Below are positions 56,590 to 64,000 of a stretch of DNA of 64,000 bases, in pieces. The position numbers and the translations under genes are program-made. Every line of letters begins with the position of its first letter. Positions within the stretch are counted from its first letter, which is position 1. Source of the stretch: Phycisphaerales bacterium (GTDB taxonomy: Bacteria > Planctomycetota > Phycisphaerae > Phycisphaerales > SM1A02); the NCBI GenBank assembly GCA_030748575.1, contig JASMLR010000007.1:1-64000 (forward strand). Reading direction: 5' to 3'. Under the pieces are notes generated by a model that worked only from the letters and a program-made list of their open reading frames with translations, was not told the origin of the DNA and searched no databases.

Positions 56590-59500
56590 CTATGTCGACG
56601 TGACCGCCACGCCCCCGGGGGTCTCCACGACCGGCGGCGCGGGCGCCTCTGACGCTCGTTGGGTGGCTGCGGCGCTGATACGGCCTCCCTCGCCCACCTC
56701 ATCAACGCGTACGGTGACGCGTTTGGAGACGCCTCGTTCCGGCTGAGTGACGCCGTAGAGGCGATCACACGCCAGCATCGTCTGCTTGTTGTGCGTGATG
56801 ACAATGAAGTGGCTGCGGTCGAGGAACTGGTCCAGCGTTCCGCAGAAGCGGCTGACGTTGGCGTCGTCGAGCGCCGCATCGACTTCGTCAAGGATGCAGA
56901 ACGGGGCGGGACGCGACTTGAAGATGGCCAGCAGCAGCGCGACCGCCGTCATGGTCTTCTCGCCGCCGGACAACTGGCTGATGACACGCGGCTCCTTGCC
57001 CGGCGGCTTGGCCTTGATTTCGATGCCGGACTCGAGCATGTCGACGTCGCCGTTCTCGTCGGGGACCAGGAAGAGGTCGGCGCTGCCGCCGCCGAAGAGC
57101 TGGCGGAAGAGCCCCGCCGGGCCGGCGAAGTGTTCCTTGACGGCTGCGAAGGTCTCTTCGAATCGAGTCCTGCTGGCGACCTCGAGTTCTGCGATCAACT
57201 GCTCAAGCTGCTCGCGGGCCTGATCGATATCGGCGACCTGGGCGATGAGATCCTCGTTGCGGGCTTCGAGGTGCTTCTCCTCCTCGATGGCGTCGACATT
57301 GACGTTGCCCAGCGCCTTGATCTGGGATCGAAGCTCCGCCACCTCCGCCTGGGCGGCGTCCCGATCGACATCGCCTTCCGTGGCAGTGGACTTCCACTGC
57401 TCGTACTCAATCTGGAGGTCGATGCCGAGTTCTTCCAGCGTTCGCTCTTCCAGGTTCTCCCGATTGATCTCAGCCTCGCGTCGGCTGAGTTCCAATGCGT
57501 GATGGTCGCGTTCAAGGATGCGGCCCCGGGCCTGCGCGGCCTGAAGTTCCTCGCGGGCCGATGCCAGCGCCTGCTCAACCTGGCTGACGGTCGCTTCACC
57601 GGCTTCGAGTTCCCGCTTCGCTGTGGTGGCGGCGGCTTCGTTCGATTCGATCTGCGACGCCGCTGACTCCATGGCCGCGGCATACTGGTCCACCTGCGCC
57701 GTTCTGCGGCCAACCTGCTCCTGAATGGATCGGCGTCGATCGGCCTCGGTCTCCGCCGCGGTCTCGACGTGCCGTCGCTCGCGGTGGGCTGACTGGTGCT
57801 GCTCGGAGAGTCGGCCGATCTCAACGCGTGCCGCGGCCAATGTCTCCTGGGCTGCATGCAATGCGGCGCGTGCCTGCTCGGCGGTCTGTTCGTGAGACTC
57901 GATGTCCTGCTCGACGTCAGCCAGCGCCGCGGCACGCCCCTCGGCGGCTGCGGCGAGCGCAGCGAGCGATGTGCGGAGATCTGCGGCCCGCACCTGCAGG
58001 TCTCGCCGCTCATCCTCAAGTTCGGATCGCTGGTGTTGCAGGCGGGTGAGTTCGGTGGAGATGCCATGAAGGCCGTACTCGAGATCAACGACCTGATTGC
58101 TTGCCTGCTGCAGCGAGTCTGCCGCCTCTCTGCGCCGGCGATCGGCGGCCGAGGACGCGTCCCGCAGGCTCTCAAGGTCACGCTCAAGGCCCGCGATTCG
58201 GGTGTCAAACTCGCACACGCTGACTTCAAGATCCTCCATCTCCATGCGTCGGGAGATCAGGCCGCCTGCCGCGGGGCGACCGATGCGGATGCGGCCATCC
58301 GGTTCGATGACTTCGCCGGTCTCAGCGGCGAGCCGCCACGTTCGCATGGACGCCTGCGAGAGATGGAGGGCCTGCTCGAACGTCGGCACCACGGCCGTCT
58401 GTCCCAACAATCGTGTCGCAATGCCGGAGGCATCGCTGCCAACCTCGACGAGGTCCAGCATGTGCCTCACGCCGTCGAGCCCGGGGGGGAGCGGGGTTCG
58501 CTCGCCGGTCTCCTGCTCGCCGCCCACCGCAATCACCAGACCCAGTTCCTGACGGCCCGCCCAGGTGGCGAGCCGCGCGGCGGCCTCGCTGCTGGGCATC
58601 ATGACGATTTCGACGTCGCGACCAAGAACCGACTCGACGAGATGTGCCCAGTCTCTCGATGTATGAATGGCGTCGCCGAGCATGCCGAGTGTCGACTCGC
58701 CGGACTCGTCGAGCGCCTTCTTGACATCATCCGCGACGCCTTCGTGCGCCTGCTGCATCTCTTCGAGGAGGTGCAGGCGTGAGCCGACGCCGGCCCGCTC
58801 GTGGCGGACATCCGCCAGAGCGTCGGCGATGGTGTCGTGCTTCTGACCGAGGTCCGTGGCGTCGTCGTCGTGACGTCGGAGATCTCGCTCCGCAACCTCG
58901 ACGCGATCGCGGACTCGGCCAAGCGACTCCTGATGGCGCTGCCGTCGGGCCTCAGACTGTTCAATGGCGGCGCCGATTTCGGTCGACCGCGGCGTGAGCT
59001 TCTCCAACTGCTCATCGATGGAGCGAAGTCTCGCCTCTGCCGCGGAGTGGTCCGTCTGGGCTCCGGCGAGTTGCTCGGCGAGCGAGTCGCGTCGAACCCT
59101 CGCTTCCCTGAGCGTCGCAGACTCTCGCTGCACCGTGTGCCCCGCAGTGGAGACGCTGTCGGTCAGGGTGGTGACGGTGTGCTCGGCCGCTTCGAGCTGC
59201 GACCCGATCGTGTCGACGTCCTGAGACAGTCGCGAGAGGTCGTCGGCAAGCTCGACGGCCCGCCGGTCGATCTCGGCCAGCGTTTCCCGGTCGGTCTCGA
59301 TCTGTGAAGTGGCCTCGTCCCGTTGTCTGGTGGCAAAGTCGTGCTGCTGTTTCGCACGCGCACTCGCTGACTCGTGCTGGGCGACTCGCTTCTCAAGTTC
59401 GCTCCTGGCGTCGCTTGCTTCGACCGTTCGGATCTCGGCGTCCTGCTGCGCGTCTTCCAGATCCGACACGGTGTTCTGCAGCGCACGCCGCTGGTCAGAG

Positions 59501-60285
59501 AGATCCGTCAGTCGGCTGGTCAGACCGATGAGCCGCTGCTGCAACTCGTCAAACTGATCAAATACCAGATCGTGGCGGAGGGTGCGATACCGCTCATCGA
59601 GTTCCTTGAATGTCCTCGCCTTCTTGGCCTGACCGCGAACCAGGCGAAGCCTGCGTTCCGTGCCATCCAACTGTTCGCGAATGCGAACGAGGTTGACTTC
59701 GGTGCGTTCGAGCTTTCGCTGCGACTCCACACGCCGCAGTTTGAACTTGGCGACGCCTGCGGCTTCTTCAAGAATCGTTCGCCGCTCGACCGGGCTCGCC
59801 TGCAGCATGGCGGAGACGCGGCCTTGCTCGATGATGCAGTAGGCGGCATTGCCGATGCCGGTATCAAGGAACAGATCCTTGACGTCCTTGAGCCGGACCT
59901 TGCGATCATTGATGAGGTACTCGCTTCGCCCGTCTCGATAGAGGCGGCGGCCCACGGTGACTTCATCGGTGTCCATAGCCAGCGCCCGCCGGCCTGCCCC
60001 GATGGTGCGTTCGCGGTCAATGATCGGGTTCTCAAAGGTGAGCACGACGGAGGCCATGCCCAACGGCTTGCGTCCGGCGGAGCCAGCGAAGATCACGTCG
60101 AGCATCGCGCCGCCACGAAGGCTCTTGGCGGACCGCTCCCCGAGGACCCACTTGACGGCGTCCACGACATTGGATTTGCCGCATCCGTTCGGACCAACAA
60201 TGCCGACCTTTGGTTCGGCAAAGCGGAAATCGACGGTGTCGGCAAAGGACTTGAAGCCGGATACGGTGACGTTCGTCAGACGCAT
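56590..60285 (-). CDS. smc: chromosome segregation protein SMC
   Basis: 1231 aa from ATG 60285. Walker A GPNGCGKS (31-38), Q-loop '[12 protein letters not shown]', long coiled coils, a hinge around residues ~500-650 ('[18 protein letters not shown]', [17 protein letters not shown]), C-terminal signature [15 protein letters not shown] and Walker B '[16 protein letters not shown]'. It condenses and organises the chromosome with ScpA/B. The C-terminal tail is Pro/Ala-rich. A ~200-bp AT-richer region before it separates it from the next gene. Confidence 0.97.
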
Positions 60286-60489
60286 GCTGTGCCTGGACCT
60301 CCTGCCCAACCACCGTTCATCCTGAACGGGTCCCTCTCAATCGTCCTCTTCGTGGCACGCTGCCACGGCGTGCCGCCCACTATATGTCGTCATGCTGGGT
60401 TCTGACACGCCAATATCGTCGATTCCGGCCGAGAAATGGGGTTTTGAGGGGCTCCAGGCCAGCAGATGGCCGGGTCGGGCCGCGGCTGC

Positions 60490-62292
60490 CTATTCGGGCC
60501 GGGCTTCGTACTCGGTGCCCATGGCCCCACGCCGCAGTTCGGCCATGACGCGGTCCTGCTGGGCCTTGAAGTCCGCCGCCACATACTGCCGCCGCCAGAG
60601 GGCGTGCAGGACACCGACGACCTCGCTGTATGTGAGGTCCATGCCAGGGCTCGGATCCTCAACCGTCGGGGCATTGGCGAGCAGAAGGACCAGTTCACGC
60701 AGGTCAGGAGATACGCGATGAATGGTCGCTGGAGCGGTGGCCGCCTCCCTGTGGAACACCTCGACCTCCTCGGCCTCTGCTTCGCCCCGCATCATCAGGC
60801 TGTTGTCCCAGAGCCCGAGCGTGAGCGGTCGCTCGACTTCGACGGCGTCTCCGAGCAGCACGAGCCGTGGAAACCGCGCCTGGGTGACATACACGGCCGG
60901 CCACGCAGACGGCACCTGATGGAGCTCAAACTTGTCCGGAATGCGGTCACGATGGACGATGGGGGAGCCCAGTTTCTCCAAAGCCTCGTAGGCGCGGAGC
61001 CGGACCTCGACGTCGGCATCGTCCAGCAGCGATCGAAGCGTCTCTTCGGTACGCGGGTCGGGTGGGAGGTTGGCCAGGAGGTGGGCCGCCTCCAGGCGTT
61101 GGGCAAGCGTGCCTTCCGACGCCATGGCTCGCAGTGACTCCGCGGCCACAGGATCCTCCAGCGCGGCCCCGGCCCGCAAGGCGGCCAGCCGCGGCAGGGC
61201 CTCGGGATAGTCGTACATCTTCCGCACCATCGGCAAGGCCTGCGGGCCCAGTGCGACCCATCGCCAGTAGGCCGACGGGGCGTCCGAAGGGTCTCGCTGC
61301 AGGGCCCGGCGGGTCGAGTTGGCAATCCGGTCCGTGTCGACCTGCCTGAGGGAGACGTGCATCACGATCTGCACGAACGTGTCGGGATCGTCTCGCATGG
61401 AGGGGGGCACGGTCAGTTCGATGACGGCGTCGCTCACGCCCCGGGCCGTCGGGGCCACCTGTCCCCGCTCGATGGGGAAGCGGCGGTTGATTGCATCCTG
61501 AATCATCCGTACCCGCGTGTGGCTCGGGTTGATCAGCCGCAACTTCAGGGGCATGTCCTGCAGGACCTGTCCGCCGTTGAGGATGCGGCCGCTCAGGGTG
61601 TTGATGTCACCGGCGGCGGCGTCCTCCCCCTCGACGAACGGGTTGAGGAAGATCGGGCCAGCGGCCTGGCCCAGTCGCCGCGCCTGGCGATCGCCCGTCA
61701 GGAGCGGTCCCGGAAAGAGATCGGTTGTGTAGAGCCGGCCGCCTTCCAGGGAGGTCGTGCCGGTTCGAGGATCGGCGTACACATGCACGTCAAACGTGGT
61801 GCCGGGGAGTACCTCGGGCAGGCGGCCCGAAGCGCTCGGTGGGGTTCGCCGCCTCCCGACCGATCCGGGCGGAACGATGCCTTCAACGATGACGACCGCC
61901 GTGCCCTCGGAGTCAAGCATGGCTTCCGGCGTGATGTGGCCGTATCCGGCACGCTCCGAGCCGATGCCGTGCCGGGCCATCACCTGAAGCATGTGGGCTC
62001 TGACATCGGGGGGGGTGTCGCGGGCGCCCGTGCCGTCGAGCCCGACGACCAGCCCGTACCCCCGAATTCGAACCGGCCGGTACATCGGGCTGGTGCTGTC
62101 ATCCCAGCCGAGCACCACGGTGTCGGCGCCAACCGTGCCTCGCATGATGCCGGAGGTCTGGAGCCCGTCGAGTTCCTTGATCGACGACGATGCTTTCGGG
62201 CGGGGCCTGGCCCGCTCAACAGAACTGCACCCGCCAGCCATCACGGCGGCGAGTGCAAGAAGAACGGCAGTGGGTGGATTCCGGGGCCACAT
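60490..62292 (-). CDS. FlgI-like lipoprotein with HEAT-type repeats
   Basis: 600 aa. Lipoprotein signal with Cys22 ('AAVMAGGCSS'). Residues ~45-345 resemble the flagellar P-ring protein FlgI: 'IRGYGLVVGLDGTGARD' (76-92), 'TAVVIVEGIVPPG', 'GTTFDVHVYADPRTGTTSLEGGRL' in parts, and 'TLSGRILNGG'. Residues ~355-450 form HEAT-type helical repeats ('LAALRAGAALEDPVAAESL'; 'LLDDADVEVRLRAYEALEKLG'). The last ~150 residues are beta-rich and end near 'MDLTYSEVVGVLHALWRR'. No flagellar genes are nearby. A true P-ring protein has a cleaved signal and no HEAT repeats, so this is a divergent paralogue, probably anchored in an outer membrane and of unknown role. Confidence 0.82.
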   Translation of the reverse strand: MWPRNPPTAVLLALAAVMAGGCSSVERARPRPKASSSIKELDGLQTSGIMRGTVGADTVVLGWDDSTSPMYRPVRIRGYGLVVGLDGTGARDTPPDVRAHMLQVMARHGIGSERAGYGHITPEAMLDSEGTAVVIVEGIVPPGSVGRRRTPPSASGRLPEVLPGTTFDVHVYADPRTGTTSLEGGRLYTTDLFPGPLLTGDRQARRLGQAAGPIFLNPFVEGEDAAAGDINTLSGRILNGGQVLQDMPLKLRLINPSHTRVRMIQDAINRRFPIERGQVAPTARGVSDAVIELTVPPSMRDDPDTFVQIVMHVSLRQVDTDRIANSTRRALQRDPSDAPSAYWRWVALGPQALPMVRKMYDYPEALPRLAALRAGAALEDPVAAESLRAMASEGTLAQRLEAAHLLANLPPDPRTEETLRSLLDDADVEVRLRAYEALEKLGSPIVHRDRIPDKFELHQVPSAWPAVYVTQARFPRLVLLGDAVEVERPLTLGLWDNSLMMRGEAEAEEVEVFHREAATAPATIHRVSPDLRELVLLLANAPTVEDPSPGMDLTYSEVVGVLHALWRRQYVAADFKAQQDRVMAELRRGAMGTEYEARPE

Positions 62293-62688: not shown

Positions 62689-64000
62689 TTATCGGGCTCT
62701 CAGCCGAGCGGCGGCCGCCTCAAGCCACTCGGCGTCCGGCATGCCCCACGGGCGGAACTTCTCGATGGTGCCGAATGCGTCCAGGTGCAGCAACGCCCGA
62801 TGCGGGCCGAGGTCGGCGGCGGTCGTGGCGTCAATCAACTGTCCCGAGTCGTTGGCCCCCATCTGGAACAGGACTCTGGCGTGGAACTCGCGTTGGCTTG
62901 CCCGGCTCAGTCCGCGGTTCACGTTGTTCAGCCCGTCGTACCACAGCAGGGAGTGGATTCCGGCCACCGGACCATCCCGCAGCAGGGCGGCGAGTTGCCG
63001 GTCCGGCTTTGCGGCGGCATCGTCGTCCATGGAGAAGGAGAAGTCGTCATCGGCAGGTCGAAGTGCCGGAATGCGTCCCGGCTCCAGACCGAGGATCAGG
63101 ATGTGCGCGCCGGTGCCACGCCCGCCGCCGGCCCGCGACTCAAGGATGTCGGTGAGCCGCTGCAGTTCGGGCTGGACGTTTTGGGCGGTGACGCGCGTGA
63201 CCTGATGCGGCAACTGATCGCCGAACATGGCGAGCTGACCGGCAAACAACGCGTCCGGTGGCGCGCCATCCAGAATCCAGACCATCAGGCCCTCGGCATC
63301 CGGCGTGTCGGTTGCCGGCAGTTCGGCTGCGGCCTGCAGCAAGGCTGCGATCATCAGCGCATTGGCCGCTTCGGCGTGCTGTCCGACGAGCAGCGCGTTG
63401 GAACCGGACTGGGCCCTGAGCGTGATGTGCGTCTTGGCGGTGATCGCAATCGGATCTCCGAGCAGCAGCGGGATCGTGTCTGTTGCGGCCGGCGGGGCGG
63501 CCAGACGCTCCTGGATGGCCTCGTCGCTGGAGAGGAGGGACGGCACGTTGCCGCGAAAGACAAACTGCGGACGGTCGGCGTTCGGAAAGCGCTGGTGGTC
63601 GAGCGTCTGCAGCCCCTCGAGGATGGTGTCACGCTCCGCGTCTGCGAGCCACACCACCTGGAATGGAGTGTTCCCCTCCAACTTGCCACCGGCGTCGTTG
63701 TAGATGGCGTCGCCCGGCCGGCGGAGCATGCGTGCTGCCGGATTGTCGTCGCTCAGGATCAGGTAGGAGTCGGCCTCAGTGCACTGCAGCGCGATCCGAA
63801 CGCCCATCTGCCCGAGTGTGCTGCGGGCGAGGGAGAACGCGCCGTCGAGGGTCTGTGAACCCATCAGGACGTGCATGCCGAAGGCCCGCCCCTGACGAAC
63901 GAGGCGGTCGAGTAGCAGCCCCGCTTCCTGGGCGATCTGATCGTCATCGACGAAGAACTCCTGGAACTCGTCGACCACGAGCAGGATCCTGGGCATTCGC
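62689..64000 (-). CDS. tandem FtsK/EssC-like ATPase, C-terminal part (partial)
   Basis: About 437 residues in the window; the N-terminal part lies beyond 64000. A Walker B 'ILLVVDEFQEFF' and 'LVRQGRAFGMHVLMGSQTL' mark one FtsK/SpoIIIE ATPase domain. A second, degenerate domain follows: the loop LLVGQHAEAANALMI stands where GxxxxGKS would be, and 'ILILGLEPGR' where Walker B would be. The ending 'RVLFQMGANDSGQLIDATTAADLG...ALLHLDAFGTIEKFRPWGMPD' resembles the C-terminal domains of EssC/EccC type VII secretion ATPases more than the DNA-pump FtsK gamma domain. It could be a T7SS-type or a planctomycetal FtsK variant; upstream sequence would decide. Confidence 0.8.
   Translation of the reverse strand, partial: RMPRILLVVDEFQEFFVDDDQIAQEAGLLLDRLVRQGRAFGMHVLMGSQTLDGAFSLARSTLGQMGVRIALQCTEADSYLILSDDNPAARMLRRPGDAIYNDAGGKLEGNTPFQVVWLADAERDTILEGLQTLDHQRFPNADRPQFVFRGNVPSLLSSDEAIQERLAAPPAATDTIPLLLGDPIAITAKTHITLRAQSGSNALLVGQHAEAANALMIAALLQAAAELPATDTPDAEGLMVWILDGAPPDALFAGQLAMFGDQLPHQVTRVTAQNVQPELQRLTDILESRAGGGRGTGAHILILGLEPGRIPALRPADDDFSFSMDDDAAAKPDRQLAALLRDGPVAGIHSLLWYDGLNNVNRGLSRASQREFHARVLFQMGANDSGQLIDATTAADLGPHRALLHLDAFGTIEKFRPWGMPDAEWLEAAAARLRAR

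Follow-up and report, generated by a model that had tools for sequence, protein, structure and literature searches.

An ancient FlgI paralogue, very probably non-flagellar, with a predicted lipid anchor and an inserted HEAT domain in the planctomycete class Phycisphaerae

The flagellar P-ring is formed by FlgI, which assembles into a 26-fold ring around the rod, and is normally regarded as a dedicated flagellar bushing. The L-ring of the same bushing is formed by FlgH, a lipid-anchored envelope protein. Reference structures of FlgI are available (PDB 7BGL, 7CBL, 7NVG and 8Z5N) and the family is described by Pfam PF02119. Work on the Salmonella P-ring divides mature FlgI into three domains, with OR comprising residues 1-11 and 160-230, IRU residues 12-159 and IRL residues 231-346 (PMC8298488). 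In the same study Lys95 of FlgI faces the rod, and OR resembles peptidoglycan-binding domains and is likened to the secretin N3 domains of GspD, InvG and PilQ and to the C-terminal domain of MotY (PMC8298488).

The protein described here, FlgI-H, is encoded in a 64,000-nucleotide stretch of DNA from a Phycisphaerales bacterium (hereafter the window), and the features of its gene and neighbours are collected in Table 1. The window's genome (2.38 Mb, 97% complete) was searched for flagellar genes, and no other FlgI, no FlgH, no FliF and no FlhA were found, in agreement with a first-pass annotation of the sequence that had placed this FlgI-like gene away from flagellar genes.

Table 1. Features of the FlgI-H gene and its neighbours, in window coordinates
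Feature	Position	Strand	Evidence
FlgI-H gene: lipid-anchored FlgI paralogue with inserted HEAT repeats, 600 aa (predicted anchor)	60490..62292	-	ORF, Pfam, AlphaFold2 model
Signal peptide and lipobox, residues 1-22 (AGG-Cys22)	62227..62292	-	Sequence; Cys22 invariant in 26/26 aligned orthologues
FlgI IRU and OR domains, residues 45-316	61345..62160	-	Pfam FlgI; VIA Z 15.8 to 7bgl, model residues 52-316; hhalign E 3.8e-38
HEAT-repeat insertion, residues 317-445	60958..61344	-	Pfam HEAT_2 in 26/26 orthologues; helices in model
FlgI IRL domain, residues 446-592	60517..60957	-	hhalign E 3.8e-8 with negative controls; VIA Z 5.3-6.1 to FlgI 248-365
smc, conserved downstream neighbour; likely start near 60285	56590..60309	-	Pfam SMC_N
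FtsK/EccC-like ATPase, 3' part, continues to contig base 66870; local neighbour	62689..64000	-	Pfam; relatives' loci

FlgI-H scores above the gathering cut-offs of both Pfam FlgI (58.7 bits against 25.3) and Pfam HEAT_2 (37.0 bits against 27.7), and carries the GYGLVVGLDGTG motif of flagellar FlgI at residues 78-89. The FlgI signature in the N-terminal half and the HEAT-type repeats in the same protein, both read earlier from the sequence, are therefore borne out. A profile search with the FlgI part gave a clear match (E 1.5e-21), and a single-sequence phmmer search of this part against the PDB a marginal one (E 0.0014). The score against the NCBIfam flagellar FlgI model lies below its curated cut-off (41.8 bits against 300). 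No secretin match was found in Pfam; the likeness to secretin N3 and MotY is one of fold only, and is reported for FlgI-OR rather than for FlgI-H itself.

A model of FlgI-H was created using AlphaFold2 with 26 orthologues, drawn from Phycisphaerae and other families of the phylum (f30, f71 and f80), and has a mean pLDDT of 81.7 and a pTM of 0.75. The IRU and OR domains of the model correspond to residues 20-245 of the FlgI precursor in the FlgI cryo-EM chains (VIA Z 15.8 over model residues 52-316), and the structural similarity to FlgI that had been anticipated was thus found. The arrangement of the two domains in the monomer model is nevertheless unlike that of FlgI (rmsd 8.6 over 196 residues), so that a P-ring-like interface is only putative.

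The beta-rich C-terminal end had been described in the first-pass annotation as an extra element foreign to FlgI. This description did not hold, as the end is FlgI's own IRL domain. It was aligned by hhalign to the C-terminus of ordinary FlgI (E 3.8e-8, probability 95), and two controls gave no match: one paired the beta-rich-end fragment with the FlgI N-terminus, the other the HEAT stretch with the FlgI C-terminus. Folded alone, the domain reached a pLDDT of 92.8, and the top four of 996 chains aligned to it by VIA were all FlgI residues 248-365 (Z 5.3-6.1); the first unrelated chain below them scored 3.2. Foldseek alone returned no match to the domain at E <= 0.001; the fold evidence for IRL is therefore modest, and it is the profile evidence that carries the assignment.

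Given that the C-terminal end is IRL and that the HEAT stretch of about 130 residues (~317-445) lies before it, FlgI-H is a whole FlgI. IRU, OR and IRL are all retained and follow one another as in flagellar FlgI; the HEAT domain interrupts the fold where OR passes into IRL, and a predicted lipid anchor is placed at the N-terminus. The repeats do follow the FlgI signature of the N-terminal half, as had been stated; their extent is corrected here to about residues 317-445. By profile and fold this stretch matches the HEAT proteins alphaRep, YibA and the PP2A scaffold, from which it differs in being inserted inside the FlgI fold of a predicted exported protein. FlgI (at E <= 0.01) and HEAT_2 were both found in all 26 orthologues.

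The N-terminus of FlgI-H has the signal peptide with a lipobox cysteine that defines bacterial lipoproteins, and on this pattern, rather than on a signal-peptide predictor, FlgI-H is assigned as a putative exported lipoprotein. The lipobox, AGGC, ends at Cys22, the residue at which a lipid anchor had previously been proposed; this cysteine is invariant in the 26 aligned orthologues, and the lipobox pattern recurs in 49 of 52 further FlgI-H loci, some of them from the same genomes as the 26. FlgH is likewise lipid-anchored, but the fold of FlgI-H is that of FlgI and not of FlgH. Compared with flagellar FlgI, FlgI-H is set apart by its anchor, by the HEAT repeats between OR and IRL and by the loss of Lys95. 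At this rod-facing position lysine is seen in none of 30 FlgI-H sequences (23 of which, and that of the window, have threonine) and in 27 of 45 ordinary planctomycete FlgI, while rod-facing Lys63 is kept in 3 of the 30 against 22 of the 45, the ordinary proteins themselves being variable at both sites.

A tree was built from the shared FlgI region (75 rows and 245 columns; unrooted, with several long rows). FlgI-H and ordinary FlgI, including that of E. coli, lie on opposite sides of one branch with support of 100/100, which argues that FlgI-H is not a late copy of a planctomycete flagellar gene. FlgI-H is thus a member of the FlgI superfamily that forms a clade of its own. Based on its score below the NCBIfam cut-off, its presence in genomes in which flagellum genes were not found and the general loss of the rod lysines, it does not qualify as a flagellar P-ring protein. 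We are highly confident that it represents an ancient paralogue of FlgI with a non-flagellar role.

Of 248 genomes of the class, 241 contain FlgI-H; among them are all 194 genomes with completeness of 90% or more and contamination of 5% or less (hereafter good genomes). FlhA was found in 151 of these 194, so that 43 good genomes without detectable FlhA retain FlgI-H. These include members of the window's own family, a genome of the same order (G220), a further genome (G127) and the families f96, f101 and f102, in line with the expectation that the gene would also occur in planctomycetes without flagella genes. FlgI-H is a core gene of its class, with or without flagella genes. Sampling across the phylum gave strong full-length matches (E < 1e-80) in Phycisphaerae and the families f30, f71, f80 and f51, and fragmentary ones in f37; the remaining families had ordinary FlgI alone or no match.

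Two observations on flagellar genes in these genomes stand apart from FlgI-H. In G051, G107, G123 and G166, frames of 322-378 aa give ordinary-looking FlgI matches that reach only to about position 265 of the 343 in the profile, so that some planctomycete lineages may lack IRL or have a strongly diverged form of it. Many genomes of f7 and f101 contain two FlhA-family genes, which suggests a second flagellar or type III export system.

Flagellate members of the class usually have both FlgI-H and ordinary FlgI. This co-occurrence, together with the homology to FlgI and the presence of FlgI-H within ~10 kb of fliF in two genomes (G111 and G105), would fit a planctomycete flagellum with an accessory component, for example a basal disk or another P-ring. 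We consider such a role very improbable, as FlgI-H is retained by the 43 good genomes without detectable FlhA, has lost Lys95 and lies mostly beside smc. In addition, dN/dS was 0.03-0.24 for four close FlgI-H pairs among the window and eight genomes without FlhA (L033-L040, completeness not stated), which indicates purifying selection in relatives without FlhA. These values also bear on whether FlgI-H is a decaying relic of flagellum loss, for which its flagellar ancestry and the failure to find another flagellar ring gene in the window's genome might be taken to speak. Purifying selection and universal presence in good class genomes refute the relic reading, to which we give practically no credence, and the separation of its clade from ordinary FlgI also counts against it. 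Some flagellar use is nevertheless possible in certain lineages: G257 (L111) and G266 have FliF and FlgI-H, and no ordinary FlgI was found in either, so that ordinary FlgI has been missed there or FlgI-H serves the flagellum.

The conserved genomic neighbour of FlgI-H is smc. With each genome counted once, 58 of 71 have a co-oriented smc that follows FlgI-H at a distance of 12-290 bp, and another 3 have it one gene away. No smc was seen nearby in the remaining 10, where some stretches stop at a contig edge. Besides smc, no neighbour family is common to more than seven of 26 loci. The FlgI-H/smc pair is an old linkage and, judging from the gene order, perhaps a putative operon. Strict confinement of homologues to flagellar operons, which would have spoken against the first-pass reading, was not found. 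The two genomes with fliF close to FlgI-H (G111, L079/L174; G105, L088) also have flgB/flgC-like genes at about 10 kb or less, perhaps a remnant of an earlier association with the flagellar cluster; with two such genomes, flagellar linkage of FlgI-H is occasional.

HEAT subunits are known partners of SMC complexes, and this, together with the adjacency of smc in the 58 genomes, could be read as pointing to a cytoplasmic HEAT-repeat partner of SMC in which the FlgI part is incidental. A HEAT subunit of this kind would be located in the cytoplasm. In contrast, the export signal and invariant lipobox cysteine of FlgI-H would place it outside, as far as sequence can tell, and we regard an SMC partner as highly improbable. 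A functional tie of FlgI-H to growth or division through smc seems doubtful to us.

On its other side, FlgI-H is flanked by an ATPase gene running from 62689 to contig base 66870 on the minus strand, with matches to FtsK_SpoIIIE (3.4e-29) and T7SS EccCa (2.7e-30). The location between smc and an EssC-like ATPase given by the first-pass annotation is accurate, but only smc is a conserved neighbour. Among the 26 loci an EccC/EssC-like ATPase is near FlgI-H only in the window's genome and six close relatives. A WXG100 protein also adjoins FlgI-H in the window's genome, and with the ATPase this could suggest that FlgI-H forms the outer passage of a type VII-like secretion system. This seems very improbable given that FlgI-H is class-wide and does not have the conserved linkage to an EssC/EccC ATPase expected of a type VII component. 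The type VII-like module itself (contig C77 62689-67799, which is window 62689-64000 plus L071:2689-7799) encodes the FtsK/EccC-like ATPase of 1393 aa, a 202-aa protein with no Pfam match and the WXG100 protein of 90 aa. It adjoins cytochrome b/Rieske/caa3 oxidase genes and is conserved in close relatives only.

To describe how FlgI-H might act, we combined its anatomy with the properties proposed for FlgI. The lipid anchor would hold FlgI-H to a membrane, probably the outer one, a placement suggested by Ser at +2 under the sorting rule of E. coli, which may not be that of planctomycetes. The OR domain may contact peptidoglycan, by analogy with the proposal for FlgI-OR, and the FlgI domains could let FlgI-H assemble into a ring or belt. 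The HEAT domain would then be a docking collar for some envelope partner, and the anchor of FlgI-H would replace the contribution that FlgH makes to the flagellar P-ring. Overall, FlgI-H would be a P-ring-like scaffold that carries its own anchor, or would tether the outer membrane to peptidoglycan. Taken as a whole, an ancient non-flagellar FlgI paralogue acting by this scaffold or tether mechanism is the explanation we favour, with some reserve.

The main rival to a ring is a lipoprotein whose FlgI fold is kept for binding and which, as a monomer or in small oligomers, would serve as a peptidoglycan tether or sensor. A predicted lipid anchor, the likeness of OR to peptidoglycan-binding folds (PMC8298488) and a domain arrangement in the model unlike FlgI would all suit such a protein. 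All three ring-forming domains are retained, however, including IRL, which a simple binder would not need, and we think the ring-less form rather unlikely. A peptidoglycan-bound oligomer or ring is a tentative proposal in its own right, which we put a little higher without calling it probable. A role as a ring or secretin-like partner in a membrane assembly, as the first-pass annotation envisaged, is plausible from the anatomy. Going further, FlgI-H could constitute a second, non-flagellar P-ring in planctomycetes, lipid-anchored and peptidoglycan-bound, whose HEAT collar docks an envelope-spanning machine and which is co-expressed with smc as part of the class core; this fuller picture is speculative and, in all its parts together, unlikely to be right.

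A general function of FlgI-H in building crateriform pits was considered and rejected, as described Phycisphaeraceae lack crateriform structures (PMC8882080) and the gene is universal in the class.

In the literature searched, mostly open-access, we found no description of a FlgI/HEAT protein or of a non-flagellar P-ring protein in planctomycetes. The main text of a P. limnophila essential-gene paper mentions neither FlgI nor smc, and there is no mention of either in a T. immobilis proteome paper.

A class-wide FlgI with a putative lipid anchor and inserted HEAT repeats, kept after the loss of flagella genes, implies that a part of the flagellar ring serves, or once served, another function in the envelope. 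FlgI-H bears on the recruitment of flagellar parts, and it cautions against taking a 'FlgI' annotation as a sign that a planctomycete has a flagellum. Little is understood of the planctomycete envelope, in which this old motor component seems to have a second task, and the gene gives a concrete target for deletion there.
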